A stretch of 64,000 nucleotides of DNA from Phycisphaerae bacterium RAS2. Its GTDB lineage: Bacteria; Planctomycetota; Phycisphaerae; UBA1845; UTPLA1. Below the pieces are notes generated by a model, which was not told the origin of the DNA, ran no database searches, and worked only from the letters and a program-made list of their open reading frames with translations. Positions 5,376-59,735 of the stretch are shown here, piece after piece. The position numbers were made by a program, and so were the translations under genes. Location: NCBI GenBank assembly GCA_007753915.1, contig CP036352.1, forward strand, positions 3,535,306-3,599,305. The letters are read 5' to 3'. Numbering within the stretch: position 1 is the stretch's first letter; every line of letters begins with the position of its first letter.

Positions 5376-5390
5376 GCAATGAGTTCCTCA

Positions 5391-5414
5391 AAAGGTCGAA
5401 GCGTCAAAACGTCA
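5391..5414 (-). repeat. Octamer tandem array (TGACGTTT type) just upstream of glnN
   Basis: Read on the minus strand, three consecutive 8-base units (TGACGTTT, TGACGCTT, CGACCTTT) are followed by TGAGG, the likely ribosome binding region, and the ATG at 5375. The same arrangement precedes the gene at 59752. A partial unit extends to about 5420. Confidence 0.7.
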
Positions 5415-5670
5415 AAACGATTCCCAAAGAACCGACCGCGCGAGCGATCGAACCGATGCGCCGCCGACCTCGTCGCGCGGAGCACTTCGTTGCTTTCCTG
5501 TCGGATGTGTTCGAGCTGCTGAACGATGACATACGGTGTAAGCCGGCCGTTGGTTCAACAGCAAGCCGGGAGCTGCTTCTTCCGACCGAGCGTCCGATCA
5601 GCCCCCCGCGTTGAAAAGGGTATTTTCGGACGCCGCGCCGATTTTTCAAGGTGCGCCGAAAGGCCTGATT

Positions 5671-7108: not shown

Positions 7109-7789
7109 ATGAGCACGAATTCAAACGGCGGCGGGGTGCAGTTGGCGGGGTCGATCCTGTCGGGCGACTTGCTCGACCTGGGCAGCGCGATTCGGCTGTG
7201 CGAGCAAGCCGGAGCGGACCTGATTCAGCTCGACGTTTGCGACGGGCATTTCGTGCCGACGATCAGCTTCGGCGAGGCCGTGGTGAAGCGGACGTGCGAG
7301 GCGACGAAGCTGCCGGTGGAGGTTCACCTGATGGTGAGCCGGCCGGACGACTGGTTGAGTCGCATGGCGGGGCTGGGCCAGTTTCGAATGATCTTTCACC
7401 TGGAGGCGAGCACGCGGGCGATGGGGGTGATTCAGGGGATCGAGCGCGGCGGGTGGAAGCCGGGCGTGGCGATCAATCCGGAGACGCCTGCGAGCGCGCT
7501 GGAGCCGGTGCTGCCGTATATTGACAATGTGTGCGTGATGGGGATCGCGCCGGGGTTCGCCGGGCAGGCGATGCTGGAATATACTTTTGTCAAGATTTCA
7601 GACATCCGGCGATTGATTGAGAAGACGGGGTCGAAGGCGACGATCACGGTCGATGGCGGCGTGAAGGCGAATAACGCGAAGCGGCTGGTCGAGGCGGGGG
7701 CGGATATCCTGGTGGTGTCGTCGGGGATGTTTCAGCATCCGCGGCCGCCGGAGAGCTTGAAGGATATCCGCGCGGCGGTGCGAGGGTGA
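7109..7789 (+). CDS. rpe: Ribulose-phosphate 3-epimerase
   Basis: Interconverts ribulose 5-phosphate and xylulose 5-phosphate in the pentose phosphate/Calvin pathways. The 226-aa TIM barrel shows the metal and catalytic segments LDVCDGHFVPTISFG, EVHLMV and TVDGGV, with the phosphate-binding region near the C-terminus (VVSSGMF). The metal-binding His and Asp residues are in place. The length is normal. The ATG at 7109 fits the family start; an in-frame ATG at 7028 would add 27 unlikely residues. It is followed immediately by heptamer arrays and tRNA-Ser. RpiB, acting in the same pathway, is encoded at 23054 but is not linked. Confidence 0.93.
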   Translation: MSTNSNGGGVQLAGSILSGDLLDLGSAIRLCEQAGADLIQLDVCDGHFVPTISFGEAVVKRTCEATKLPVEVHLMVSRPDDWLSRMAGLGQFRMIFHLEASTRAMGVIQGIERGGWKPGVAINPETPASALEPVLPYIDNVCVMGIAPGFAGQAMLEYTFVKISDIRRLIEKTGSKATITVDGGVKANNAKRLVEAGADILVVSSGMFQHPRPPESLKDIRAAVRG

Positions 7790-7792
7790 AGG

Positions 7793-7861
7793 GCGAATTG
7801 CGAATTGCAAATGGCTAAGTGCGAAGTAAGGGAGAATGAAGAATTGAAAATGTAGAATGGG
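7793..7861 (+). repeat. Heptamer tandem array 1 (GCGAATT to AATGAAG type)
   Basis: About ten consecutive 7-base units start four bases after the rpe stop codon. The first two are identical (GCGAATT), the later ones drift to AATGNAG-like units, but the 7-base phase is kept throughout. Confidence 0.65.
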
Positions 7862-7912
7862 CCGTCGCCGGGACGCGCCTGAATACGCGGCGGACCGTTG
7901 CCGAAGTGGATC

Positions 7913-8065
7913 GGCTGACGGCTCAAGTAAACGTAGGGTGCGTCCTCGACGCACCAGATTGGCTAACGGCTTGGAGCTAACAGCTGATGGCTCTATTAGA
8001 CTGGCTCGCGGCTCAAGGCTGATTAGGATTGGCTCACGGCTAATGGCTAAGAGCTTATCGCTGAA
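7913..8065 (+). repeat. Heptamer tandem array 2 (GGCTNAN type), interrupted by a palindromic element
   Basis: Two units at 7913-7926 and fifteen units at 7961-8065 follow a degenerate GGCTNAN consensus with period 7. The two parts are separated by 34 bases (7927-7960) holding palindromic element A. The array ends four bases before tRNA-Ser. Confidence 0.75.
7932..7956 (+). repeat. Dispersed palindromic repeat A, copy inside heptamer array
   Basis: A 25-base element starting CGTAG with the hairpin GGTGCGTC-CTC-GACGCACC. It is identical to 62086-62110 and to 44214-44238 (opposite strand), and differs by one base from 3115-3139. Confidence 0.85.
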
Positions 8066-8069
8066 TCAT

Positions 8070-8156
8070 GGAGAGGTGGCCGAGTGGCTTAAGGCGGCGG
8101 TCTTGAAAACCGCAGTACGGGAAACTGTACCGGGGGTTCGAATCCCTCCCTCTCCG
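8070..8156 (+). tRNA. tRNA-Ser (anticodon TGA)
   Basis: An 87-base type II tRNA. The acceptor stem is GGAGAGG paired with CCTCTCC and a G discriminator at 8156. The anticodon loop reads TCTTGAAAA, giving anticodon TGA (serine). A long variable arm (GTACGGGAAACTGTAC) and a T loop GGTTCGAATCC are present. CCA is not encoded. The last 14 bases recur at 15127-15140. Confidence 0.97.
8143..8156 (+). repeat. Possible attachment site, left copy (tRNA-Ser 3' end)
   Basis: The 14 bases TCCCTCCCTCTCCG at the 3' end of the tRNA are repeated exactly at 15127-15140 in the same orientation, bracketing the exporter cassette. Integrases often use tRNA 3' ends, but no integrase gene is visible between the copies. 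Confidence 0.4.
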
Positions 8157-42980: not shown

Positions 42981-43958
42981 ATGAACGGGCGATTTGGGTT
43001 TGCAGTGACGGGCATGATGGGGTTGGCGCTGGGTGTCGGATTCCTGGCAGTGCCTTCAGCGCGGGCGGTTGAACCGCCGGAAGACCAGCAGGGCGCGATG
43101 GACGAAGATCGACCGCCGCGCCGAGGCCCGATGGGCGGGCCGCGGATGCACGACGGTCCTCCGCCGGGGCATTCTGAAGACGGCATGGACGACGGTCCGC
43201 GCCGGCCGATGCGCGAGCGCCGGGGTGAAGGCCCGGACGGCGGGCGCCGCTGGCGCGAGGGGCCGCCCGAGCTGACCGATGAAACGCTTGACAAGGTCAT
43301 GGCACTGGTCGCGGACAAGTTCCCGATCATGCACCAGCGACTCACGCGGCTGCGGGAAGAGAACCCCGAACGCTTCCGCCGGTCGATCGGCCGCATGGTC
43401 GGCGTCTATCACGAGTATCAGATGCTCAAGGAGCGCCACCCCGAGATGGCCGAGACGCTGATCGACGAGATTCGCGGCGAGCAGCAACTGGCCGATTTGA
43501 TCGAACAGCATCGCGCTGCCTCGGGCGACGCGCCGAAGCAGGCACAAATCGAAACAACGATGCGCGAGGCCGTTCGCACGCAGGTGAACCTGATGCTCAA
43601 GCGGCGCGAAGCGCGGCTGGCGGATTTCGGCGCGCGAATCGCCCAGCAGCAGGAACGTCTCGCCGAAGAACAGGCCAAGCTGGCCGATGAAAAGACACGC
43701 GTCGATGAGTTGGTCAACCAGCGACTGGAGGACATCAAAGCCGGCAAGATGCCGCCGAAGCATGGGCCGTTTGAGGGCCGCGGTTTCGGCAAGGGACCTC
43801 CGGGCGGTCCCGGTGGCCCCGGGCTGGGCGGTCCCGACGAGCGCCGAATGCGAATGCGCGACGGCAAAGGCCCGCGTCATCCGCGGCCGCGACCGGATGA
43901 GGACATGCCGCCGGAAGACGGTGAAATGCTCCCTCCGCCGCCGCCACCGGGCGAGTGA
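42981..43958 (+). CDS. Periplasmic protein with coiled coil and Gly/Pro/Arg-rich arms (Spy/CpxP-like position)
   Basis: A 325-aa exported protein. After the signal (VTGMMGLALGVGFLAVPSARA) comes a low-complexity arm rich in Pro, Arg, Gly and Asp (residues 28-90), then a helical core (ELTDETLDKVMALVADKFPIMHQRL ... ARIAQQQERLAEEQAKLADEKTRVDELVNQRLEDI) and a second Gly/Pro-rich tail ending in six prolines and GE. The helical core recalls LTXXQ-type periplasmic chaperones such as Spy, but the motif itself is absent. Third gene of the sigma/anti-sigma unit; a strong terminator follows. Confidence 0.6.
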   Translation: MNGRFGFAVTGMMGLALGVGFLAVPSARAVEPPEDQQGAMDEDRPPRRGPMGGPRMHDGPPPGHSEDGMDDGPRRPMRERRGEGPDGGRRWREGPPELTDETLDKVMALVADKFPIMHQRLTRLREENPERFRRSIGRMVGVYHEYQMLKERHPEMAETLIDEIRGEQQLADLIEQHRAASGDAPKQAQIETTMREAVRTQVNLMLKRREARLADFGARIAQQQERLAEEQAKLADEKTRVDELVNQRLEDIKAGKMPPKHGPFEGRGFGKGPPGGPGGPGLGGPDERRMRMRDGKGPRHPRPRPDEDMPPEDGEMLPPPPPPGE

Positions 43959-44124
43959 TGCGAGAACGTCGCCGCACTCAAACGAGAATTCACAGCCCAC
44001 ATATCGAGGTGCATTCCGCGACTCGACAGGTCGGCGCGTGAGGGCTATCTTGGGTGCGCTGGCGGTGTGAATCGCTGGCACACAACATAAGAGTGACATC
44101 CGCGTGAGAATCGTGGGTGGAGTG

Positions 44125-44160
44125 GGCCCGTGGTCGCTTGTCGACCGCGGGCCATTATTT
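44125..44160 (+). terminator. Rho-independent terminator after the ECF sigma operon
   Basis: A 12-base-pair stem, GGCCCGTGGTCG against CGACCGCGGGCC (one G-T pair), with loop CTTGT is followed by ATTATTTT. Confidence 0.75.
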
Positions 44161-44213
44161 TGCGCTGACCTTAAGCCTTAAAAATCTCATCCTGATGCTA
44201 CATCTTCTCATCG

Positions 44214-44238
44214 TGGTGCGTCGAGGACGCACCCTACG
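44214..44238 (-). repeat. Dispersed palindromic repeat A, minus-strand copy
   Basis: Reverse complement of the 25-base element at 7932-7956 and 62086-62110, without mismatch. It lies five bases from heptamer array 3. Confidence 0.85.
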
Positions 44239-44243
44239 TTTTA

Positions 44244-44292
44244 CTGCCCACCGCCCACCGCTCACTGCTCACTGACCACTGCCCACTGCCCC
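44244..44292 (+). repeat. Heptamer tandem array 3 (CTGNCCA type)
   Basis: Seven consecutive 7-base units (such as CTGCCCA, CCGCTCA, CTGACCA) end one base before the stop codon of the PAP2 gene (44294). The unit matches heptamer array 4 at 52299-52354. Array and repeat A together fill 44214-44292. Confidence 0.75.
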
Positions 44293-44293
44293 C

Positions 44294-45445
44294 TCAATCA
44301 AACGACTTCACGAATGCGATGCCCGTGCCGCCTTGCGTGCTGGCATACGGCGCGATCTTCCACCCGAAGAAATCCGGATCGCGGCCCGACGCGACGCTGT
44401 GCCCCACCACCGTTCCAAGCACGGCCCCCATGACCACGTCGGAGAAATAATGCTCGCCGTCCTCGATGCGCTCGTATCCCGCGAGCGCGGCCAGTGCATA
44501 GAGCGGAATGCCGACCGCGTGCCCGTATGCCTCATGCATGACACTCGCCACAACGAAGCTGCTCGACGTATGGCCCGAAGGCAGCGTCCCGCGCTCGCCG
44601 TTGGGGGCCCGGTCGTACGACGCCGCCTGCCCCAGCATCACCGTCACGCCGTTGATGGCCAGCGCCGAGAACAGCGTCTTGCCCACTTCGTAGGTCTTGT
44701 CGTCCATGCGCTGTTGGCCGATGAGGTACCACGCGCCGGCCAGTGCGAAATGGGTGCCGGGGTTGCCAATCGCCCCGAATGCGTCGCGCCAGTCCTCCTT
44801 GAAATGGTGGTGCGCCGGCCGCCAGTCGCCCTCTTTGTTGAAGTGCCGCTCGATGGAGTAATCGACGCCAGATTCCTTGATGGCGATGGCCCCGCCGAGC
44901 GTGCCGCCGAGAATCACGAGGTTGACCGGGTTGGCATAAACGCGCTTCGTGTCACGCCACAGATCGGCCGGGGCGTTCTTCACGTCGCGCTTGACCGTCT
45001 CCCAGAACGACGGCAGCGGCGGGCGACGAAGGTATTTGTCTTCTTTCTCCGACCAGTTGACCTCCGCTCCGTCCGCTGTGCCGGCCCCCTCGCCGGCGTC
45101 GCCCAGCAGCAGGATCGTCTCGTCAAAGTCGAGCTGCGCCGCCTGCGCCAGTGTCACGACGCGATCCTGCCCCGCCGCGCCCGTCGCTCCATTCGCCGTT
45201 GACGCGACGATTGAAACAGGCTGGTTCAGCCGAACCTTCGGGGCGCGCCCGGAGCCGGAACTTCGCCATGCCAGATCCCTGTCCGCGGGCGGCAGGTCGT
45301 CAGCGCTTGCCAGCCGCGCTCGCTCGATCCGGTCCAACCGGCCCGCCAGACCTTGCGGCGCGATGCTTGCCGACCGCTCGCTGCAACCGGCCAGTGAAGC
45401 CAGCAACACCGTTGCACAAGATATAGAAAGGGTGATTCGTGACAT
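44294..45445 (-). CDS. PAP2 family (phosphatidic acid phosphatase type 2) lipoprotein
   Basis: A 383-aa lipoprotein: the signal ends TVLLASLAGCSERS with a good lipobox. The C-terminal half is a PAP2/vanadium haloperoxidase-like domain with RAPNGERGTLPSGHTSSSFVVASV (the PSGH motif) and GYERIEDGEHYFSDVVMGAVLG (R-x5-H-x3-D, with the nucleophile His). The N-terminal 190 residues are a linker of low complexity. It likely dephosphorylates a lipid or sugar phosphate in the periplasm. AGGAGG lies seven bases before the ATG at 45445; an ATG two codons upstream is too close to that site. Confidence 0.87.
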   Translation of the reverse strand: MSRITLSISCATVLLASLAGCSERSASIAPQGLAGRLDRIERARLASADDLPPADRDLAWRSSGSGRAPKVRLNQPVSIVASTANGATGAAGQDRVVTLAQAAQLDFDETILLLGDAGEGAGTADGAEVNWSEKEDKYLRRPPLPSFWETVKRDVKNAPADLWRDTKRVYANPVNLVILGGTLGGAIAIKESGVDYSIERHFNKEGDWRPAHHHFKEDWRDAFGAIGNPGTHFALAGAWYLIGQQRMDDKTYEVGKTLFSALAINGVTVMLGQAASYDRAPNGERGTLPSGHTSSSFVVASVMHEAYGHAVGIPLYALAALAGYERIEDGEHYFSDVVMGAVLGTVVGHSVASGRDPDFFGWKIAPYASTQGGTGIAFVKSFD

Positions 45446-45773
45446 GACCATGCCTCCTGGAAGAATCGAGGCCGCCTCGCGCCGTCCTTGGCGGGTTGGG
45501 GCTCAATCGTAGAACGCTGGAAAGAGCTTGGCAACTCAACATTTCTGTCAAAAGGTGGATATCGGGGCATCACGAAGGGGATCAACCGATCTCGACAATT
45601 TACGCCCAAACACTTGAAACGCTTCCTCGAAAGCCGTACATTCGTTGGCGTGCGATGCTTCGTCATGGTCCATCCACCTATCTTGGATTGACGGATCTGC
45701 GGCATCGGATGCGCCTTTCACTGCCGGGCCGTAATTAGCGGGCGTGTCGACGCTGAACACGCGAGGAGGCAAC
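45446..45773. other. Intergenic stretch with no clear gene
   Basis: The divergent control region between the PAP2 gene and the HAF-repeat gene. A 67-codon open frame at 45488-45691 (plus strand) has no protein-like features. I see no terminator or palindromic repeat of the families listed here. Confidence 0.4.
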
Positions 45774-47057
45774 ATGTCCCGAATCAAGACGAGCGAGACT
45801 TACATGGCGAGTCGTCAGTCATCGGGCCACAGGCTTATGGAATTCATTCGAGTCCGGCGTAAGCCCGTATGCGGAAAGCTGTTCGACAGTCGCCTACCTG
45901 GTTTACGCTGGTTTGCCTTGTACGGCGCTCTGCTATCCGCATCAGTTGCCGCGCCGGTTCGAGCCCAATGGACCGTGACCAACTTGCACCCGGAAGGGGC
46001 CAGTGAATCGTTTGCGACGGGCGTTCACGCGGGCCAGCAAGTGGGCTACGCAAAGTTCGGCATCACCGATCGAGCCACATTGTGGAACGGCAGCGCGGAG
46101 TCATGGATTGACCTAAATCCCTTTGGAGCGAGCTCTTCACGAGCACTGGGGATTCATAACGGGCAACAAGTGGGTCAAATCGGCGTTGGCAGCAATTCCA
46201 CACGGGCTGCCATGTGGAGCGGCAGCGCAGCCTCATTCGTCAGTCTGCATCCCGCCGGCGCTACCTTCTCACAAGCTCATGGCGTCTACGATGGTCGGCA
46301 GGTCGGCGAAGTGAGATATGGCGGCTCCAGTCGCGCGACCTTATGGAATAACAGCTCGACGCCGTTGAGCTTGCACCCCGACTGGCTTGCGAGCGGGTCG
46401 GTTGCCTATGGAGTTGACAGCAATCAAGTGGCAGCAAGGCTCGATATGTATGGCGATCCTGCGGCCGGTGTTTGGAACACCAGTGGCTCTTATTGGGTGA
46501 ATCTCGGGCCGCCGGGCACGTACTGGTCAGGGGCCTACGGCGTACACGCCGGTGAGCAGGTCGGCTGGGCCTACGGGTACGTGTGGGACCCCAACACAAC
46601 GATACGAGCCTTCATGTGGAGGAGCTACACCAATACAGGCGTAGATTTACATCCCGCCATTGCAAGCTCTTCGATCGCGTACGGCGTTCACGCGGGGCAT
46701 CAAGTGGGTCAAGTCGCATTTGGCGCGTACCCGGGCGTCCCACATGCCAGCTTTTGGAAAGGTACTGCCGAAACGTGGGTAGACCTGCACACCTTCCTGC
46801 CGGTGCACTACCAAAGTTCAGAAGCGCGAGGCGTCTGGCACGACCAAGACGCAGGAATAACATACGTAGTGGGGCACGGATTCAACATCAACACGGGTCG
46901 AAACGAGGCCCTCATGTGGACGTTGCCCGAGCCCGGCAGTGGACTATTGGCGATGGCGGCGATGCTGGGGTTGACCGCGACGCGCAGCCGGCGCTCACAC
47001 GCGGCGAACATCAACATGAAAACGATTGAAAGCACGTCAATGCGGCCTAGCCCGTGA
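45774..47057 (+). CDS. Extracellular HAF-repeat protein with PEP-CTERM-like tail
   Basis: A 427-aa secreted protein. After a long signal region (residues 1-65, helix FALYGALLSASVAAPVRA) it consists of about seven repeats of 45-50 residues with the pattern A-x-GVHAGQQVG ... RATLWNGSAESWIDLNPxGASSS, which is the HAF extracellular repeat type. The end, LPEPGSGLLAMAAMLGLTATRSRR, is a PEP-CTERM-like sorting signal (Pro-Glu-Pro, helix, Arg cluster). About 20 extra residues follow the Arg cluster, which is unusual. GAGGAGG lies just before the ATG at 45774. Function unknown; probably surface-exposed. Confidence 0.82.
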   Translation: MSRIKTSETYMASRQSSGHRLMEFIRVRRKPVCGKLFDSRLPGLRWFALYGALLSASVAAPVRAQWTVTNLHPEGASESFATGVHAGQQVGYAKFGITDRATLWNGSAESWIDLNPFGASSSRALGIHNGQQVGQIGVGSNSTRAAMWSGSAASFVSLHPAGATFSQAHGVYDGRQVGEVRYGGSSRATLWNNSSTPLSLHPDWLASGSVAYGVDSNQVAARLDMYGDPAAGVWNTSGSYWVNLGPPGTYWSGAYGVHAGEQVGWAYGYVWDPNTTIRAFMWRSYTNTGVDLHPAIASSSIAYGVHAGHQVGQVAFGAYPGVPHASFWKGTAETWVDLHTFLPVHYQSSEARGVWHDQDAGITYVVGHGFNINTGRNEALMWTLPEPGSGLLAMAAMLGLTATRSRRSHAANINMKTIESTSMRPSP

Positions 47058-47100
47058 TGGGCGTCGATTCGCGCCGCACATTCGTGATAGCCTTTGACCT

Positions 47101-47361
47101 ATGACACGGATCAGCGAGTTCTAAAGAATCGTCACTTACATGTACTACCGTGATCATGCCCCGCCGCATTTTCACGCCGTCAATTCCGGAAGCGAGGCGG
47201 AAGTGGCGATCGACTCCCTTGAAACCATTGATGGGTTCTTGCCCCACCGGGCGATGAGTCTGGTAAAAGAATGGGCAAGGCTCCATCAGGTTGAACTTCG
47301 GACTGTCTGGAACCAAGCGCGTTCGCATCAACCATTGAAACAGATCGAACCGCTGCCCTAA
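47101..47361 (+). pseudogene. DUF4160 family gene with an in-frame stop codon
   Basis: DUF4160 proteins typically start MPxISRFYGIVIxMYYxDHxPPHFHA. Here the frame from 47101 reads MTRISEF, TAA (47122-47124), RIVTYMYYRDHAPPHFHAVN, so a stop replaces the usual Tyr after Phe; a single TAT/TAC to TAA change explains it. The rest (73 residues from the ATG at 47140) is intact to LPHRAMSLVKEWARLHQVEL. It may be restarted at 47140 or be dead. It lies one base before a DUF2442 gene, its usual partner in toxin-antitoxin-like pairs. Sequencing error cannot be excluded. Confidence 0.75.
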
Positions 47362-47362
47362 A

Positions 47363-47638
47363 ATGATGCGTATGCCTCGAATCAACGAAATACGACCATT
47401 GCCCGGGTTTCGCATCTTCGTCCGGTTCGAGGATCAGGTCGCGGGTGAAGTAGACCTCTCTGATCTACGCGGCAAGGGCGTGTTTCAATCCTGGGACATT
47501 CCAGGGACTTGCGAAGCCGTTTTCATTGATCCGCAGACCGGTACCGTGGCATGGCCCGGCGGGATTGATATTTGCCCGCGAACGCTCTACCAAGACGTTC
47601 TTGCGCAACAACCAACTGCTACATCAGGCGGCCAATAG
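47363..47638 (+). CDS. DUF2442 family protein
   Basis: A 91-aa protein with the DUF2442 layout: INEIRPLPGFRIFVRFEDQVAGEVDLSDLRGKGVFQSW, then CEAVFIDPQTGTVAWPGGIDICPRTLYQDVL, with the conserved VDL, GVF, WPGG and DICP-LY positions. DUF2442 genes commonly sit next to DUF4160 genes, as here, in pairs suspected to be toxin-antitoxin modules. The start is 47363; an ATG three codons on (47372) is an alternative. It overlaps nothing and is read directly after the broken DUF4160 gene, so it may be translated by coupling. Confidence 0.82.
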   Translation: MMRMPRINEIRPLPGFRIFVRFEDQVAGEVDLSDLRGKGVFQSWDIPGTCEAVFIDPQTGTVAWPGGIDICPRTLYQDVLAQQPTATSGGQ

Positions 47639-47697
47639 CGGATTACCCTCGCCTTTTCTCTGAGGCTCCACTTTTAGTTCACCGTATTAATTCTGGC

Positions 47698-48804
47698 CTA
47701 ACCATTCGGCAGAATCACGGCCTTGCCCGTGCGCCAGTGCGCCACTTCCTCCAGCGCCTCGTTTACCTGATCCAGCCGGAACCGATGCGTGATCAATTCA
47801 TGAAACGGGAAGCGATCCTTCCGCGCCCGCAGGAAGGTCAGCGCCCGCGCCCAGTGCACCGGCTCCGAGCCGTATGAGCCGTGAATCTCCAATTCCCGCT
47901 TCGTGATGTGATGCGGGTTCAGCATCACCGGTCCCGCGTCGCAATACTGACCCAGCACCATGTACCGCCCGCCGTCCCGCGCCAGCGGCCAACCCTCGGC
48001 CACCGCGGCCGGATGCCCAACACACTCCACCACGCAGTCGGCCCCCAGCCCGCCCGTGTGCTCCAGAACGATGCCGCGCCGCTTGTCCGCGTCGCGCACT
48101 TCGTCGATATCAATGCAAATGTCTGCACCGAACCGCCGGCACCGCTCCAGCCGCTCTCGCGGCCCGCCGATCGCGATGATCGGCCGGCAGCCCGCATCGG
48201 CCGCGATCGCCAGCGCCGCCAGGCCCACCGGCCCGGCCCCTTGAATCACCACGCTCTCGCCCCAGCGATACGGCATCTTCTCGCAGGCATGCACCGCCGT
48301 CACCAGCGCGCAGCCCGCGCCGATCAACGACTCGCTCGGCAGATCGTCCGGCAACTTGAAGATCGCCGTTCCGGCGCGCAGATGATGATACTGCCCGTAT
48401 CCGCCCAGAAAGTGCGGCGGCGCGTTGCACGGCGTGTTCACCCCGTAGGCCTTGCGATTCAGACACCGCGCCGGAAGTTTATACAATCGACAATATCGAC
48501 ACTGCCCGCACGTCATCCCCACTGTCCACGAAACCCGATCCCCCGCCCGCAGCGGCTGACCCAGCCAGTCGGCCGCCTCGCCCCCCACGCCCTGCACCCG
48601 CCCCACCGTCTCATGCCCCATGATCAGCGGCAACGGCACCGGCAACTGACCCTCGTGCAAATGAACATCCGTCCCGCATACGCCAGCCATCTCGACCTTC
48701 ACCAGCACCTCGCCGAGGGCCAGGTCGGTCGGCAGCGGGAACTCCTGCACGCGAATCGGCTGCTTGAACGCGTGCATCACGGCGGCTTGAGCGGTTTTTG
48801 ACAT
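47698..48804 (-). CDS. Zinc-dependent alcohol dehydrogenase family protein
   Basis: A 368-aa medium-chain dehydrogenase. The catalytic zinc ligands are MAGVCGTDVHLHEG (Cys) and IMGHETVG (His-Glu); the structural zinc site is GMTCGQCRYCRLYKLPARC; the nucleotide-binding Rossmann motif is VVIQGAGPVGLAALAIA. The C-terminal GSYGSEPVHWARALTFL region is normal for the family. Substrate unknown; the closest named relatives I recall are sorbitol/threonine dehydrogenase-like enzymes. The ATG at 48804 is used; no strong ribosome binding site is seen. It is divergent from the propeller gene. Confidence 0.87.
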   Translation of the reverse strand: MSKTAQAAVMHAFKQPIRVQEFPLPTDLALGEVLVKVEMAGVCGTDVHLHEGQLPVPLPLIMGHETVGRVQGVGGEAADWLGQPLRAGDRVSWTVGMTCGQCRYCRLYKLPARCLNRKAYGVNTPCNAPPHFLGGYGQYHHLRAGTAIFKLPDDLPSESLIGAGCALVTAVHACEKMPYRWGESVVIQGAGPVGLAALAIAADAGCRPIIAIGGPRERLERCRRFGADICIDIDEVRDADKRRGIVLEHTGGLGADCVVECVGHPAAVAEGWPLARDGGRYMVLGQYCDAGPVMLNPHHITKRELEIHGSYGSEPVHWARALTFLRARKDRFPFHELITHRFRLDQVNEALEEVAHWRTGKAVILPNG

Positions 48805-48953
48805 GGTTCGGGTGATTCTCGCGGCACGCACTCAAACCGTCAAAGCGGCAATGCACTTCGGCCTCGCCGCACTTGAGTTTCAATCGCCCGCGCGGCACAA
48901 TACGGAGTGTTCCGTGCCGACCCGGCGAGCCTCAACCTCAGGAGCATCTTCAC

Positions 48954-50264
48954 ATGTCTTTCGCGCTTCCTTACGCATGGCGTTCGATTGCCACCCTGCG
49001 CGCGTCGCGCGCGGCCGTCTGCTGCCTGACCGCCGCAGCCGCCCTCTCCTGCACCGCCCTTGCCCGTGCCGAGAGCGGCTGGACCCGCTGGGGCGGCCCC
49101 AACCAGGACTGGAAGATCAAGTGCGGCAAGCTCGCCGGCGAATGGCCCGAGAGCGGCCCGAAGAAAGCCTGGACGCGCGAGCTGGGCGAGGGTTACTCGT
49201 CCATCAGCGAGGAGAACGGCAAGCTCTACACCATGTATCGCGAAGAAGGCGAGGACGGCAAGGAAGTCGCCATCTGTCTTGATGCAAAAACCGGCCAGAC
49301 GGTCTGGGAGCGCAAGTACAAAGCCAAACCGTCGGATGAACACGTCATGGAGTTCGGCGCCGGCCCGCGCGCGACGCCGCTCCTCTGCGACGACCGCGTC
49401 TACACCATCGGCGTCTCGGGCATCATGCATTGCCTGAACAAGGCCGACGGCAAGGTCGTCTGGAAGCACGACCTGTGGAAGGAGTTCAAGGGCACCGTGC
49501 TGAACCACGGCTACTCCTCCAGCGCCCTCGACTACGGCGACACCGTCATCGCCATGGTCGGCGGCAAGGGCCACAGCCTCATGGCCTTCCGCAAGGACAA
49601 CGGCAAGGTCGTCTGGAAGAAGCAGGACTTCAAGAACAGCTACTCCACGCCCATGATCATCAACGTCGATGGCCAGGATCAGATGCTCTGCTTCATGGCC
49701 GAGGAACTGGCTGCGCTGAACCCCGAAGACGGCGAACTGCTCTGGCGCGTGGAACACAAGAACCAGTGGGGCCAGAACGTCTGCCTGCCGGTCTGGGACG
49801 CGAAGGATCACCTGCTGTTCATCACGTCGGTGGCCCAGGGCGGCAGCAAGTGCCTGAAACTGTCGCGCGACGGCGACGAAACCAACGTGGAAGAGGTCTG
49901 GGCCAATCCCAAGCTGCAGATTCACCACTCCAACGCGATCCGCCTCGGCGACACGATCTACACCTCTTCGGGCGGGCGCGGCCCCGGCATCTTCTACGCC
50001 GTCGACGTCAAAACCGGCGACATCCGCTGGAAGGAACGCGGCTTCGCCAAGGCGACATTCGTCTATGGCGATGACAAGTTCTTCGTCGTCGATGAAGACG
50101 GCAACGTCGGACTGGTCGAGCCGGACCCCGAGTCGTTCAAGATCAAGGCCAATGTACCCCTGCTCACCAAGGCCGCATGGACCCATCCGACTCTCGTCGG
50201 CAAGCGGCTCTACCTGCGCGATCGCAAGGTCATCATGGCGCTGGATGTCGGCGCGAAGTCCTGA
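48954..50264 (+). CDS. Secreted PQQ-binding-like beta-propeller repeat protein
   Basis: A 436-aa exported protein with a signal peptide (VCCLTAAAALSCTALARA) and PQQ/quinoprotein-type propeller blades: CLDAKTGQTVWERKY, CLNKADGKVVWKHDLW, AFRKDNGKVVWKKQDF, ALNPEDGELLWRVE, AVDVKTGDIRWKERGF. The opening W-x-x-W-GGPNQDW is usual in planctomycete members. There is no alcohol dehydrogenase domain, so PQQ binding is doubtful; many such proteins are structural. AGGAG lies nine bases before the ATG. A strong bidirectional terminator follows 55 bases later. Confidence 0.87.
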   Translation: MSFALPYAWRSIATLRASRAAVCCLTAAAALSCTALARAESGWTRWGGPNQDWKIKCGKLAGEWPESGPKKAWTRELGEGYSSISEENGKLYTMYREEGEDGKEVAICLDAKTGQTVWERKYKAKPSDEHVMEFGAGPRATPLLCDDRVYTIGVSGIMHCLNKADGKVVWKHDLWKEFKGTVLNHGYSSSALDYGDTVIAMVGGKGHSLMAFRKDNGKVVWKKQDFKNSYSTPMIINVDGQDQMLCFMAEELAALNPEDGELLWRVEHKNQWGQNVCLPVWDAKDHLLFITSVAQGGSKCLKLSRDGDETNVEEVWANPKLQIHHSNAIRLGDTIYTSSGGRGPGIFYAVDVKTGDIRWKERGFAKATFVYGDDKFFVVDEDGNVGLVEPDPESFKIKANVPLLTKAAWTHPTLVGKRLYLRDRKVIMALDVGAKS

Positions 50265-50318
50265 CACCGCGGAGACGTACCTAAGACCGGGCGTGCGCGA
50301 TTCGGACCGTGCAAGAAA

Positions 50319-50366
50319 AAAGCCCCCTCGTTCGCCTCACGGCGACGAAGGGGCTTTCATTTTCTC
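50319..50366. terminator. Bidirectional rho-independent terminator
   Basis: A GC-rich hairpin (AAAGCCCC on the left arm, GGGGCTTT on the right) with a GCG-containing upper stem is flanked by an A-run on the left and TTTCATTTTC on the right. It serves the propeller gene from the left and the small minus-strand gene at 50402-50491 from the right. Confidence 0.8.
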
Positions 50367-50401
50367 ATGACCGCAACCGGACTTGATCCGGCCGCGGACA
50401 T

Positions 50402-50491
50402 TTAGATGTGCGGGGTGGGTACCGGGAAGAAGATCCACTGCATCACAACAAAGAAGTACCAGATCGCTGAAAAGATTGCTGCGATATTCAT
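50402..50491 (-). CDS. 29-residue single-pass membrane microprotein
   Basis: A tiny gene: ATG at 50491 with AGGAGG seven bases upstream, product begins MNIAAIFSAIWYFFVVMQWI and ends FPVPTPHI before a TAA at 50402. It is one hydrophobic, aromatic-rich helix (about residues 3-23) with a polar, Pro-rich tail. It ends 36 bases before a terminator that suits the minus strand. The combination of a perfect ribosome binding site, a coherent helix and a following terminator argues for a real gene. I do not recognise a family; small subunits of oxidases and other membrane complexes look like this. Confidence 0.6.
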   Translation of the reverse strand: MNIAAIFSAIWYFFVVMQWIFFPVPTPHI

Positions 50492-50823
50492 TGGACGGCC
50501 TCCTGTGAGGGTTCGCCCTCGCGCCCGCCGAAGCGGCGGACACCCTGCGAGTGCGGGGTCAAGTGTAGCCAATCGAAAATCGGCGTCAACGAGCGCGAAG
50601 GCAACGATCACTGCCCGCGTCCACGGCGACCCCGGCGCAAGCCGTCATCCCGACACACCCTCTAAGACAGCATGAGATGCTTCCACACTTCGCCCCGGCG
50701 CGGTGCGGAAATTCACGGCCCACTGCGCAGAATCAGCCTCAGAACCTCATCGAGCTGAAAGCCGGCACCGAGACCCACCACGAAGGGCGAGGCCCGAAGA
50801 TGGCCACAATTCCTCGGCGCGGC
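50492..50823. other. Intergenic stretch with no clear gene
   Basis: Holds the promoter region of the microprotein and the 3' flank of the zinc-ribbon membrane gene. I see no tandem array, palindromic repeat or credible reading frame in it. Confidence 0.4.
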
Positions 50824-52116
50824 CTAATGCGAGCCGAACTCAAGATTCTTGCGAAACGCCCGCGCGAAGAGACCGTGCAGCCGAGCCAGGACGTACATCC
50901 CGTAGAAATAGAATGCCATGACTGCGCCCCATGCGACGAGGGCGAGGCCGACCTGAAGCAGGTTGCCCTCCTTCGAGCCGGCCGACATCTGGCTGATCTT
51001 GGGGATGAACCAGTCGTGGACAATGGCCCAGAACGCCCCGCCGAAAAGGATGCCATAGACAACGAGAATGATGACGAGAAAGAGGTAGTGCACGTGCGTT
51101 CGGGCGATGCCCTTGGCCACGTTCACCGGGTTGATGCCCTGCGACACCGACCCGAGCGCGATGCCGACGAGATTCATCGGGACGCCCAGCGAGATGACGA
51201 GCAAGCCGACAAAGAATCCCGCGCCGCCCTTCTCAAGCAGGTCGGTCGCGTTGGTCTCCATGACGAATTCAACCGGCGTCTTGCCCATCGTCAGAAACAC
51301 GACGATGCTCAACATCACCGCGAAATAGACATTCAAGACAAGATACGCCACGACGCTCTTGCCCCACTGGGCCGGACCCCACGACAGATTCGGCGGCGCC
51401 TCCTGCCCGACGGTCGTCGTCCGGACGACATCAAGAAACGTGTGAATCGCCACGGCCGAGAAGAAGAACACCTCCAGCGCGAAGATGCCCATCAGCATGA
51501 GCGACGCGGTGCTCAAGTCGCCGGTCTGTTCGGCGGTTTCGGTCCCCGCCGCGCTTTGCTGCATCAGATAGGTGAGCGACGTGAAGATCGCCACGGGCAC
51601 CAGCCCCGCGCCGACGGCGATGCCGGCCGCGTTCAGCAGCGATGCAATCGCGGGGATCGGGTAGGCCATCGCATTGCCGATGCCGCTGTAAAACGTCGCG
51701 ACCGAGGTCGGACCGCTCTGCCGTCGGGGCGAAGGCCCGCCGCCTTTCACCAGCGCGGGGATCGGATTCCAGCAATTGGAACACAGCACTTCGGTGTACG
51801 GGTCTTTGGCCTTGGTCGGCTTTTGACAATTGGGACAGATGCGAACGTTGGGGTCGCTCTTGGAGGCTTCTTTCTGCGCGGCGGCCGTGACGGCATCCTG
51901 TGCCGCCTTCAGCTCCTCTCCCCCCATCTCGCCGGCCCGCTTCTCAAGCGCGGCGAGGCTCTCCAAATCGAGATCGCCGCCGGCGCCGCTTCGCAGCGCG
52001 GTTTGAAGCTTCGGCACGGAGAAGGCGCGGTTGCACGCGGGGCAGCGAATGGCGCGGCCGGCATACTTGTCGGCGATCTGCAGTGCCTTCTGGCACCGCG
52101 GGCAACGCAGCTTCAT
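50824..52116 (-). CDS. Zinc-ribbon multi-pass membrane protein of unknown function
   Basis: A 430-aa protein. The N-terminus has two zinc-ribbon-like sites: KLRCPRCQKALQIADKYAGRAIRCPACNRAF (residues 3-31, the MJ0042-like type common in planctomycetes) and ICPNCQKPTKAKDPYTEVLCSNCWNP (about 93-118). Residues 140-420 hold about six membrane helices, including FALEVFFFSAVAIHTFLDVV, AYLVLNVYFAVMLSIVVFL and YLFLVIILVVYGILFGG, in a DUF4013/YIP1-like pattern. It may be a stress- or membrane-organisation protein; nothing more specific can be read. Confidence 0.72.
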   Translation of the reverse strand: MKLRCPRCQKALQIADKYAGRAIRCPACNRAFSVPKLQTALRSGAGGDLDLESLAALEKRAGEMGGEELKAAQDAVTAAAQKEASKSDPNVRICPNCQKPTKAKDPYTEVLCSNCWNPIPALVKGGGPSPRRQSGPTSVATFYSGIGNAMAYPIPAIASLLNAAGIAVGAGLVPVAIFTSLTYLMQQSAAGTETAEQTGDLSTASLMLMGIFALEVFFFSAVAIHTFLDVVRTTTVGQEAPPNLSWGPAQWGKSVVAYLVLNVYFAVMLSIVVFLTMGKTPVEFVMETNATDLLEKGGAGFFVGLLVISLGVPMNLVGIALGSVSQGINPVNVAKGIARTHVHYLFLVIILVVYGILFGGAFWAIVHDWFIPKISQMSAGSKEGNLLQVGLALVAWGAVMAFYFYGMYVLARLHGLFARAFRKNLEFGSH

Positions 52117-52298
52117 GTCGGCACGTCCTCCGTACGCCCGGCCCTGGGGCGAATTCTACGCGATCCAGCCGCAATGAGTAAGGTACACTCCCCCGCCGCC
52201 GGCCCGAATCAAATCACGTTGGCCAACCAACCACGCCAATCCAAGATCGTATCATCAGGCAGTGCGTCACCCTGCCGCACCGCCAAATGTCTCATTTC

Positions 52299-52354
52299 CT
52301 GCCCACTGACCTCTGATCACTGACCTCTGATCACTGACCTCTGATCACTGACCA
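52299..52354 (+). repeat. Heptamer tandem array 4 (CTGACCT/CTGATCA), overlapping a stop codon
   Basis: Eight 7-base units. Six of them alternate CTGACCT and CTGATCA, giving three perfect copies of a 14-base unit. The array runs over the stop codon (52345-52347) of the PAS-GAF-receiver gene. Same unit family as array 3 at 44244-44292. Confidence 0.8.
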
Positions 52355-54033
52355 CTCCCCCCCACAGGCATCAACGCCTTGCGAACTTCCTCGATCAGTT
52401 GGTCGACCATGAACGGCTTGAACAGCACGGCGCTCAATCCCTCGGGCCGCGCGCGAACAATTGAATGATTCGGGTCGTAGCCGAAGCCGGTCATCAAAAT
52501 GACGGGGCAATCGGCCCGTTTGTCGCGCGCCGTCGAGAAGACTTCGTACCCATTCTTGTGCGGCATGCGAATGTCGGACAGGACCAGATCGTAGTCCTGT
52601 TGCTCGATGCGCGCGATGGCCTCACTCCCGTCCGAGGCCATGTCGACCGTGCCGCCCCGCCGCGTCAGCAGCTCGGCGATGGTCTCGCGGATCGTCTGGT
52701 CGTCGTCAGCCACGAGGATTCGCTTGCCGTTGATCAACGGATCGACCGGCGTCGCGTCGCCGTGGCGGCCGAGGATGCCGGAGCGGGACGTGCCGGCGGC
52801 CTTGATGCGCTTGCTGATCTCCTTCGCGTTTTCACAGATCGCGGCAATTCGCCGCCGGAGCGAGTCATTGCCGATGTACTCGTCCATGATCCCCTGTGAC
52901 TCGGCGATGATGTCGTTCACCGGCCCGGCCACCTCGCTGCAGACGTCGTCCACCAATTGCCCGCTGAATTCGTACCGCTCGATGATCAGCAGGTCCAGCG
53001 TGTTCAGGGCAATCGCGACATAGCGCGCCAGAATCTCCGCGAACTGCTTGTCGTCCTCGTTGAAGGCGTTGACCTCGTCCGACTCGATGTCCAGCACGCC
53101 GATGACCGAGTCACGCAGCCGCAGCGGCACGGTCAGCGAGCTGCCGGTCGTGTCCAGCCCCTGGAGATACAGCGGGTCTTGCGACGTATCTTTACATATG
53201 TAGCTTTGTCCGGTCGCCGCCACGTAGCCGCTCGTGCCGTTGCCCGTCGGCTCCGCGTAGATCTCGTAGTCGCGGCTCTGCTGCGACAAGCCGTGGTGAA
53301 AGACAAAATCCAGCTTGTTCGTCTTCTTGTCGATCAGCAGCACGGCGAACTTGTCGAAATTCAACAGGTCCTTCAGATACCCGTGCATCTTCTCTTCCAG
53401 CAGCGCGATGCGCTGCTCGACGTTCATCCCCGCGAACGCCTCCGCGTCGATCCGCGCCAACTCCCGGCCCGCCAGGTCGATCGCGTCGATCTTCTTCTGC
53501 AGGCGCCGGCTGTGCGTCACGTCCCACACCACCGCCGCCACCTGCGACACCTCGCCCCGCTGGTTCAGAACCGGTGTCACCGTCAAGTCAAAATACTGAT
53601 CCTGGCCGCCCGTCAGGCTGAATCGCCGCGCGCGGTGATACGAAGGCTGCGCGGGATCGGTCTCAATCGGCACGCCGAAGGTCTTGGCGCAGACCTCGCA
53701 GACCTTTTCGCGAAGATCCGGCGGATAGCTCTGCATCTTGGGATTCGACCAGACATGTCGGCCATCCAGTCCGACAATGCAGACGCCCTGCCCGATGGTT
53801 TCAAGCAGCAGCGTCGCCTGGTGATTGATTGAGGCGCGCTCCAGCGCAAGAAAATCACGCTGATCGCTGATCACGAGGTCATATTGACCGTCCCGCAGCG
53901 CCGCCACGGCCTCGTCAAACGAAGCGACGGTGCGAACTTCGGCATCGGGAAAAAGCTGGCAAACGCGGTCGGACGAGGGAGAACCGGGGCGGCTCAAGAC
54001 GAGAATTCGCGAATGAGTCGCCGTGCCGTTCAT
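52345..54033 (-). CDS. Multi-domain signalling protein: receiver-like, PAS, GAF, helical domain, receiver; no kinase ATPase
   Basis: A 562-aa cytoplasmic protein. Order: a degenerate receiver-like domain (RILVLSRPGSPSSDRV..., residues 9-70, with SDQ in place of the phosphoryl site), a PAS domain (about 80-190, ETIGQGVCIVGLDGRHVWSNPKM), a short coiled link, a GAF domain (about 225-345, FAVLLIDKK; VPLRLRDSVIGVLDIES), a helical segment resembling a HisKA dimerisation domain but without phosphorylatable His in the usual context (about 350-410), and a C-terminal receiver (RILVADDDQTIRETIAELL; LVLSDIRMP with the acceptor Asp; VLFKPF). There is no HATPase domain, so an external kinase is needed. ATG at 54033 is used. 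The last codons lie in a heptamer array. Confidence 0.82.
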   Translation of the reverse strand: MNGTATHSRILVLSRPGSPSSDRVCQLFPDAEVRTVASFDEAVAALRDGQYDLVISDQRDFLALERASINHQATLLLETIGQGVCIVGLDGRHVWSNPKMQSYPPDLREKVCEVCAKTFGVPIETDPAQPSYHRARRFSLTGGQDQYFDLTVTPVLNQRGEVSQVAAVVWDVTHSRRLQKKIDAIDLAGRELARIDAEAFAGMNVEQRIALLEEKMHGYLKDLLNFDKFAVLLIDKKTNKLDFVFHHGLSQQSRDYEIYAEPTGNGTSGYVAATGQSYICKDTSQDPLYLQGLDTTGSSLTVPLRLRDSVIGVLDIESDEVNAFNEDDKQFAEILARYVAIALNTLDLLIIERYEFSGQLVDDVCSEVAGPVNDIIAESQGIMDEYIGNDSLRRRIAAICENAKEISKRIKAAGTSRSGILGRHGDATPVDPLINGKRILVADDDQTIRETIAELLTRRGGTVDMASDGSEAIARIEQQDYDLVLSDIRMPHKNGYEVFSTARDKRADCPVILMTGFGYDPNHSIVRARPEGLSAVLFKPFMVDQLIEEVRKALMPVGGSGQ

Positions 54034-54517
54034 CGCGTACAAACCCACTGTTCAAGGTCCCATCGAAAGCGCAGGGGACGAGCCTTTCGATTTGAAATGA
54101 GCAGCGACCCCCGGAATGCAGCCATGCGAAAACCTTTCACCAAGGCTCCAATGCTGGATTCTATCACACGGACTCGGTCCGGACCAACCCCCTCTTAAGC
54201 GTCAATCCGCCCTGCGCGTTTTTACGTGCCGACGCTTTATTATCGACCGATCGGGCGACCTCGGCTGACTGCAACCCGCGCAGGAATGCCAAAACGAGGC
54301 TCGCAGGAGCGCACACCGCTCCGTGCCCCCGATATTTGCACGTGTTGAAATGAGTAGTGGGAACAGTGACGCGATGGCGCACCATCGCCCTGTGCCGAGT
54401 GCATCCGGTTCAGGCTCGATCCGCAGGACACGATGCCATCGACCAAAGCCAGTTTGCCAGGTTCGTAGCGACACCACCCGGCGGCAAGTCCCTTACAGAC
54501 AAGCCCAGCCGGTCAAC
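54034..54517. other. Intergenic stretch with no recognised gene
   Basis: Nearly 480 bases between two minus-strand genes. I see no convincing reading frame, tRNA or riboswitch core. The promoter of the signalling gene should be at its left end and the 3' region of the DUF3352-like gene at its right end. Confidence 0.4.
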
Positions 54518-59703: not shown

Positions 59704-59735
59704 TGACGTTTTGACTTTTTGACGTTTCGACGTTT
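59704..59735 (+). repeat. Octamer tandem array (TGACGTTT type) upstream of the lamin-tail gene
   Basis: Four consecutive 8-base units (TGACGTTT, TGACTTTT, TGACGTTT, CGACGTTT) followed by CTTGAG, the site GGGGAG and the ATG at 59752. It mirrors the array before glnN, including the C at the start of the last unit and the TGAG that follows. Confidence 0.7.

Follow-up and report, generated by a model that had tools for sequence, protein, structure and literature searches.

What places copies of one short repeat directly against the ends of unrelated genes, and is it the stop codon that they mark? The question is raised by two tandem arrays in a 64,000-nucleotide stretch of Phycisphaerae bacterium RAS2 (contig CP036352.1, positions 3,535,306 to 3,599,305; hereafter the window). 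Array 1 (44244-44292, + strand; Tandem Repeats Finder (TRF) 44243-44291, score 63) consists of seven degenerate heptamers of an ACTGNNC family, and 1 nt separates it from the TGA stop codon (44294-44296, minus strand) of an open reading frame (ORF) of the PAP2 superfamily (44294-45451, minus strand; Pfam PF01569, E 1.5e-11). Array 2 (52299-52361 when extended, TRF 52299-52356, + strand) belongs to the same family; its degenerate heptamers also form a higher-order 14-mer ladder, perfect over 52304-52353, and it contains the TGA stop codon (52345-52347, minus strand) of a PAS-GAF-receiver ORF (52345-54048, minus strand; Pfam GAF and Response_reg). The units CTGACCA and CTGCCCA are common to both. 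An earlier note on the window, based on the sequence alone, had described two arrays of one heptamer family which adjoin or overlap stop codons, the second supplying the stop codon itself; this description is borne out throughout.

The ACTGNNC arrays are dispersed and degenerate, and very probably each tends outward from a gene edge, with its G-richer strand, (GNNCAGT)n, running 5' to 3' away from the gene. Most such edges are stop codons, the others being start codons or RNA-gene ends, and the rule concerns the strand that an array presents to a gene edge of any kind. The family, whose units mostly end in C, is commoner than chance throughout the home genome (G000; 4,324,589 bp): a three-unit pattern, CTGNNCACTGNNCACTGNNCA, gave 131 matches when up to 2 mismatches were allowed versus 9 for the reversed letters, 64 versus 2 with up to 1 mismatch, and a narrower pattern gave 67 versus 0.

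Placement was examined in the window and in 60 further stretches, each of 20 kb, which together make up 1.264 Mb or 29% of the genome; a self-written ORF caller predicted 960 genes in them (82.5% coding). As 39 of the 60 stretches were picked for holding a match, the other 21 being spread as background, densities are not genome averages, such as that of the lag-7 tandem signal (9.3 per 10 kb in intergenic versus 0.3 in coding DNA); left-right asymmetry is unaffected by this choice. Three of the 42 arrays lay inside called genes and were dropped from the placement counts. On the ACTGNNC strand, a gene edge was found within 10 nt on the 3' side of 19 of the remaining 39 arrays and on the 5' side of 1. 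When positions were drawn at random within these intergenic gaps, 20,000 trials averaged 4.5 and never exceeded 13; with strands flipped at random, the highest count was 18. The earlier note held that random placement genome-wide would speak against its view of a repeat of gene ends; the placement found (19/39 versus 1/39) lies beyond all 20,000 simulations.

Within 20 nt, 22 edges were counted, namely 16 stops of genes on the opposite strand and 6 starts of genes on the same strand. RNA genes, located by independent programs, follow the rule as well: tRNA-Trp begins 6 nt past one array, and the 3' end of RNase P RNA lies 7 nt from another. Both are among the 20 arrays scored above as misses, and at two other misses a plausible start codon, overlooked by the ORF caller, is seen by eye at 2 and 7 nt. 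With arrays also set against start codons, a tRNA and RNase P RNA, the rule is not specific to stop codons. The earlier idea of one repeat family spread over unrelated genes and placed at their ends is supported, while its restriction to stop ends was too narrow. The abutted genes are real and mutually unrelated; they encode FlgG-like, FliE, CitMHS, FtsX-type permease, GNAT, penicillin-binding, ThiG, UDP-glucose dehydrogenase, sigma-70, SDR, CDGSH and other proteins, and 4 of 19 abutting proteins scanned had no Pfam match. Pfam domains reach the last residue beside arrays in FliE (30-113 of 113) and CitMHS_2 (20-465 of 465). As a separate observation, nearly all arrays lie on the + strand between 2.2 and 3.9 Mb, the half of the genome with negative GC skew, and both strands are used in the other half; this bias may follow gene strand or replication direction.

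The same polarity is found elsewhere. The pattern occurs at all in 19 of 61 genomes of the order, counting the home genome, and a gene edge lies within 10 nt on the 3' versus the 5' side in 12 versus 0 of 19 arrays in G039 and 8 versus 0 of 13 in G036. A broad set was obtained by searching a four-unit ACTGANY pattern over the genome_contigs collection, with at least 120 loci in many phyla; all counts from it are among the matches listed. Of 159 arrays, 6 lay inside genes and 28 had no called gene on one side, which left 125. Gene calls were self-made everywhere beyond the window, with small training sets at these loci. The edge lay within 10 nt on the 3' side of 65 arrays and on the 5' side of 9 (49 versus 4 of 95 when one array per locus is kept, p 7e-11); of 80 abutted edges, 57 were stops and 23 starts. 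Phyla were assigned from record titles: Chloroflexota gave 8 versus 1 of 18, Cyanobacteriota 10 versus 1 of 13, Planctomycetota 5 versus 1 of 8, Bacteroidota 5 versus 0 of 8 and Acidobacteriota 3 versus 0 of 6, and the 40 loci whose titles were not shown gave 24 versus 6 of 45 arrays. When the home and broad sets were pooled by gene layout (211 arrays), the counts were 22 versus 2 of 34 between convergent genes, 6 versus 0 of 22 between divergent genes, and 20 versus 8 of 74 and 62 versus 3 of 81 for the two codirectional types. Convergent pairs present two stop edges, so promoters or start codons cannot be the cause.

In viral contigs (IMG/VR), the four-unit pattern occurs in at least 120 stretches versus 27 for the reversed letters, and among the matches listed, to which the following viral array and region counts also refer, 121 versus 20 of 405 usable arrays (474 in total) abut on the 3' and 5' side. 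Forty contigs are array-dense, and 31 of them form one protein-linked cluster; the dense contigs being related, their array pairs are not independent events. In four of them, 10 proteins match phage families (Mu-type transposase, transposition protein, endolysin, head-tail and tail proteins). The 40 contigs have 230 intergenic regions of 60 nt or more: 107 hold an inverted pair in the expected order, with each array reading away from its gene, 4 hold both strands otherwise ordered, 36 have one array alone, on the expected side, 11 one alone on the other side, and 72 hold none. Mu-like tailed phages or fragments with inverted ACTGANY pairs in most intergenic regions are seen at loci L371, L361, L344, L385, L351-L353, L403 and L357.

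Other repeat units lean alike. In six genomes of the order, within stretches picked for ACTG arrays, tandem lags of 7, 8 and 9 are enriched in intergenic and not in coding DNA, and a sequence-blind search found 183 arrays. For non-ACTG families of 7- to 9-mers read on the G-richer strand, a neighbouring gene lies within 10 nt on the 5' side in 38 of 110 and on the 3' side in 7 of 110, and 33 of the 38 abutting edges are stops. Array-free edges have no such skew (G exceeds C outward at 53.5% of 1,014 stops and 40.6% of 1,158 starts). An instance in the window is a GCGAATT heptamer array (7790-7827, + strand) which directly follows the stop codon at 7787-7789 with its G-richer strand outward. 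The region that starts with this stop codon (7787-8071) continues beyond the array with a REP-like hairpin of the GTAG form (7933-7955) and a degenerate GGCTAAN heptamer tract, and ends by eye in a tRNA-Ser-like start, the entire intergenic region being built of repeats. Two octamer arrays of four units each are also present in the window, TCAAAACG at 5388-5419, 12 nt from the start codon of the neighbouring gene, and TGACGTTT at 59704-59735, 16 nt from such a start codon.

Short tandemly repeated repetitive (STRR) sequences of cyanobacteria are degenerate intergenic heptamers in tandem, like the ACTGNNC arrays, and their unit TTGGTCA resembles the ACTGNNC unit. With a degenerate 7-nt unit mostly outside genes, the arrays fit the class of intergenic bacterial heptamer tandem repeats. 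Polarity is already in print for other heptamers, in the parts of two reports that are drawn on here. TAACTGA direct repeats of Beggiatoaceae, Cyanobacteria and Bacteroidetes were described with 147 of 170 sets directed to a start codon (sets that end 1 nt short of it form the largest class) and one Flexibacter set standing after a stop in reverse orientation; they were read as the site of a translational regulator, and a binding regulator was proposed (MacGregor 2015, PMC4679880). TAACTGA is also a heptamer and a rotation of ACTGATA, which is one letter off ACTGANY, and its start-directed sets match the start-edge class found here and the Flexibacter set the stop-edge class. Here, however, stop edges dominate, RNA genes are included, and the unit is a degenerate, GC-richer ACTGNNC; the exact TAACTGA unit is absent from arrays 1 and 2. 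The heptamers GGGAATC and GGGGA(C/T)T of Xanthomonas and Nostoc are intergenic, degenerate and G-quadruplex forming, and almost always lie closer to the 5' ORF, whichever its direction, at distances that grow when the strand is reversed (Rehm 2015, PMC4692102, where three Calothrix heptanucleotides are also mentioned). Nearness to the 5' ORF on the G-rich strand is the same polarity as that of ACTGNNC, and the published reading is quadruplex-based, yet the ACTGNNC units follow the same rule without a G tract in each. By eye, neither window array has the quadruplex motif of three or more G in each unit at close spacing: GGG is absent from the array 2 ladder, and the four minus-strand GGG runs of array 1 are separated by as much as about 20 nt. 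In the literature consulted, no statement was found of the rule for ACTGNNC, or across families or phyla, at RNA-gene edges or at phage junctions.

The history of the two window sites was followed in related genomes. Because full-length homologues of the PAP2 protein in 14 relatives (two additional short matches excluded) align to residues 381-385 of 385, and the same-genus genome G001 has its stop at the identical residue, the PAP2 stop codon is ancestral, as judged from these alignments. Array 1 is present at the orthologous G001 site in a shorter, diverged form. Array 2 has no counterpart there; the final codons and the stop of the receiver gene come from the array, and the protein ends within about 3 residues of the G001 protein. 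Truncation of genes by insertion is accordingly ruled out for PAP2, by the G001 stop, and for genes with Pfam domains that extend to the C-terminus, and it is possible for genes reading into an array (gaps of -9, -16 and -23). In G019, from another family of the order, a different heptamer array (GTCACCT) stands after the stop of the PAP2 homologue (L172), and reversed-letter control matches in that genome may be this heptamer; behind the stop codon of its receiver-gene homologue (L151) lie several copies of a different REP-like hairpin, GGTCCGCACAGCGGACCCTAC.

Eight sites of the home genome were compared with their G001 counterparts. Three hold shared arrays whose lengths differ by exactly 7, 21 and 7 nt (350891, 1324970 and 3266999), two hold arrays that are shared and diverged (179837 and 3579549, the latter being array 1), and at two arrays found in the home genome only (141235 and 3587604, the latter being array 2) the outward intergenic DNA is replaced up to the gene end. 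The eighth array, at 3813355 within a doubtful ORF, is missing from G001 together with about 220 nt. Units decay gradually in the distal tail of abutting arrays, and equally on both sides of non-abutting ones.

The reading that we tentatively prefer, while holding it as a whole to be plausible and by no means assured, joins outward patches to slippage. Strand-biased repair or copying would deposit patches that extend outward from where constrained DNA ends, slipped-strand copying would then lengthen and diversify the arrays, and purifying selection at the gene would fix a sharp inner border; such arrays would not act as terminators and would need no product. Slippage is supported by the changes in steps of 7 nt, and the sharp inner border together with the outward replacement at two sites suggests patches from the gene edge outward.

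Several points weigh against this reading and the polarity on which it builds. Polarity is weak in the array-poor genomes G001 (3 versus 1 of 5), G009 (2 versus 1 of 5) and G020 (1 versus 1 of 5); among the matches listed, only 1 versus 0 of 7 is found in Verrucomicrobiota and allies, divergent pairs judged by the nearer edge give 13 versus 9 (not significant), and the bias is milder in array-sparse viral contigs (41 versus 16 of 84). In viral contigs, the heptamer with its letters reversed gives 7 versus 6 of 31 within 10 nt. For the patch step itself, the outward replacement rests on n=2 sites, and directional growth is not directly seen, non-abutting arrays decaying on both sides. Plain slippage inserts DNA and should not shift an array towards the gene, so that a gap of zero needs the inferred patch step, and slippage alone leaves the conservation of ACTGNNC across phyla unexplained. 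In Xanthomonas, regions with another heptamer repeat are more conserved than controls (in the part of PMC4692102 drawn on).

The conservation of ACTGNNC/ACTGANY at unrelated sites in many phyla and the occupation of most junctions in the array-dense phage contigs would be expected of a sequence-specific boundary element, with a DNA- or RNA-binding protein that reads the heptamer and polar sites selected at edges, for example to insulate the gene; the binding regulator proposed for TAACTGA (PMC4679880, in the part drawn on) points the same way. Such an element would hardly be so patchy within the order (19 of 61 genomes), one binder would not explain why several unrelated heptamer and octamer families lean alike, and an RNA-level binder would face opposite strands at start and stop edges. 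We consider this account unlikely, although it deserves serious attention.

Alternatively, arrays may arise anywhere and on either strand, and selection may purge the harmful orientation near each edge, the harmful RNAs being C-rich and Rho-loadable right after a stop, and G-rich and structured or Shine-Dalgarno-like right before a start. The growth of distance on the opposite strand (PMC4692102, in the part drawn on) is consistent with this filter. It also suits both edge types and the inward strand, which is C-rich and unstructured (-1.4 kcal/mol for the + strand RNA of array 1). It predicts avoidance of the wrong edge, however, and not attachment at 0-3 nt to the right one; paired phage arrays place C-rich RNA in the same untranslated gap, and RNA-gene edges obey the rule. 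An orientation filter is rated as rather improbable.

REP (repetitive extragenic palindromic) elements, moved by RAYT (REP-associated tyrosine) transposases, are imperfect palindromes preceded by GTAG. The arrays have another form, being direct tandem heptamers, most of them with no REP alongside, and they might still travel as passengers with REP hairpins via RAYT (Y1_Tnp) transposases, or with transposable phages. REP-like GTAG hairpins do stand on the far side of some arrays with the same lean: 10 of 42 arrays have one within 120 nt, always in a single order and strand. One of these elements, which we take to be a REP from its resemblance, is the hairpin GGTGCGTC-GAG-GACGCACC followed by CTAC (44215-44237, + strand), on the side of array 1 far from the gene and also present in G001. 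Eight Y1_Tnp genes were found in the home genome by Pfam, array-free REPs lean the same way (7 versus 1 of 23 within 30 nt), and array-dense contigs carry Mu-type transposase genes. Against a passenger origin, such a hairpin is missing beside 32 of the 42 arrays, the far side shows no enrichment of stem-8 hairpins (3 of 39 in the home genome, 4 of 125 among the matches listed of the broad set), and phage-contig homology breakpoints are rarer in arrays than in random intergenic DNA (14% of 285 versus 31%). We judge it improbable. The breakpoint figures also led to the rejection of arrays as recombination linkers. Separately, three near-identical hairpin copies were noted within 1.4 kb of the home genome (1828622-1829994), one of them preceding a tandem repeat which contains ACTGACCCACC.

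It is decidedly improbable that a strand-biased DNA-synthesis activity, found across phyla and perhaps spread by transposable phages, adds short repeats outward at gene edges in a loosely telomerase-like manner; the 7- to 9-mers would then differ by lineage while the outward G-strand stays constant.

The earlier note had suggested an effect on termination or mRNA stability, and such a 3'-end element, acting as terminator, stabiliser or by RNA pairing, appears very improbable. Stops do dominate the edges (16 of 22 in the home genome, 57 of 80 in the broad set among the matches listed), the RNA of array 2 folds beyond shuffles (z -4.09) without a T run, and transcripts start or stop more often in G-quadruplex-forming repeats (PMC4692102, in the part drawn on). 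Yet the rule extends to start edges and RNA genes, the RNA of array 1 folds like its shuffles (z -0.09), and the suggestion gains no support from the gene strand, on which no consensus terminator follows either stop. No intrinsic terminator (GC-rich stem and T run, gene strand) was found in 52100-52450, and the sole minus-strand match in 44000-44400 (44389-44374) lies inside PAP2 and not past its stop. The inverted phage arms are not tuned to pair or complementary beyond chance. An intercistronic hairpin or mRNA panhandle was rejected because arms paired within one gap are less stable than arms combined across gaps (p 6e-10; p 0.004), and a panhandle around one gene because flanking arms are no different from others (p 0.34). 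A three-frame stop device was also rejected: every ACTGANY unit holds a TGA, but genes at stop edges read the opposite strand, and as a general role it fails in several other families, which by eye have no stop on the inward strand. On such sequence evidence, terminator, hairpin and three-frame-stop roles are disfavoured. A terminator-like stem of 12 pairs with a T-rich tail was observed at 44125-44153, downstream of a + strand gene ending at 43958.

It is scarcely credible that chance repeats and an ORF caller which ends genes at stop-carrying arrays produced the pattern, since, although the caller is home-made, arrays hold TGA, TAG and TAA and some genes read one to three units in, either orientation can close a frame and yet one side dominates, gaps of -4 to +10 alone still give 50 versus 3 of 125 among the matches listed, Pfam domains reach the final residue and RNA genes were called independently.

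Relative to print, what appears to be new is the family itself (ACTGNNC), one rule shared by several families and phyla, and its extension to RNA-gene edges and to phage junctions. The two published explanations, by G-quadruplexes and by a translational regulator, are unrelated and come from two heptamers in a few genomes; with this third family, its spread over many phyla, and its presence at RNA genes and at most junctions of array-dense phage contigs, neither can be general. Gene edges themselves, and not translation or quadruplexes, seem to orient the arrays, and finding the cause of this orientation would explain a common class of intergenic DNA and mark how intergenic regions get rebuilt.

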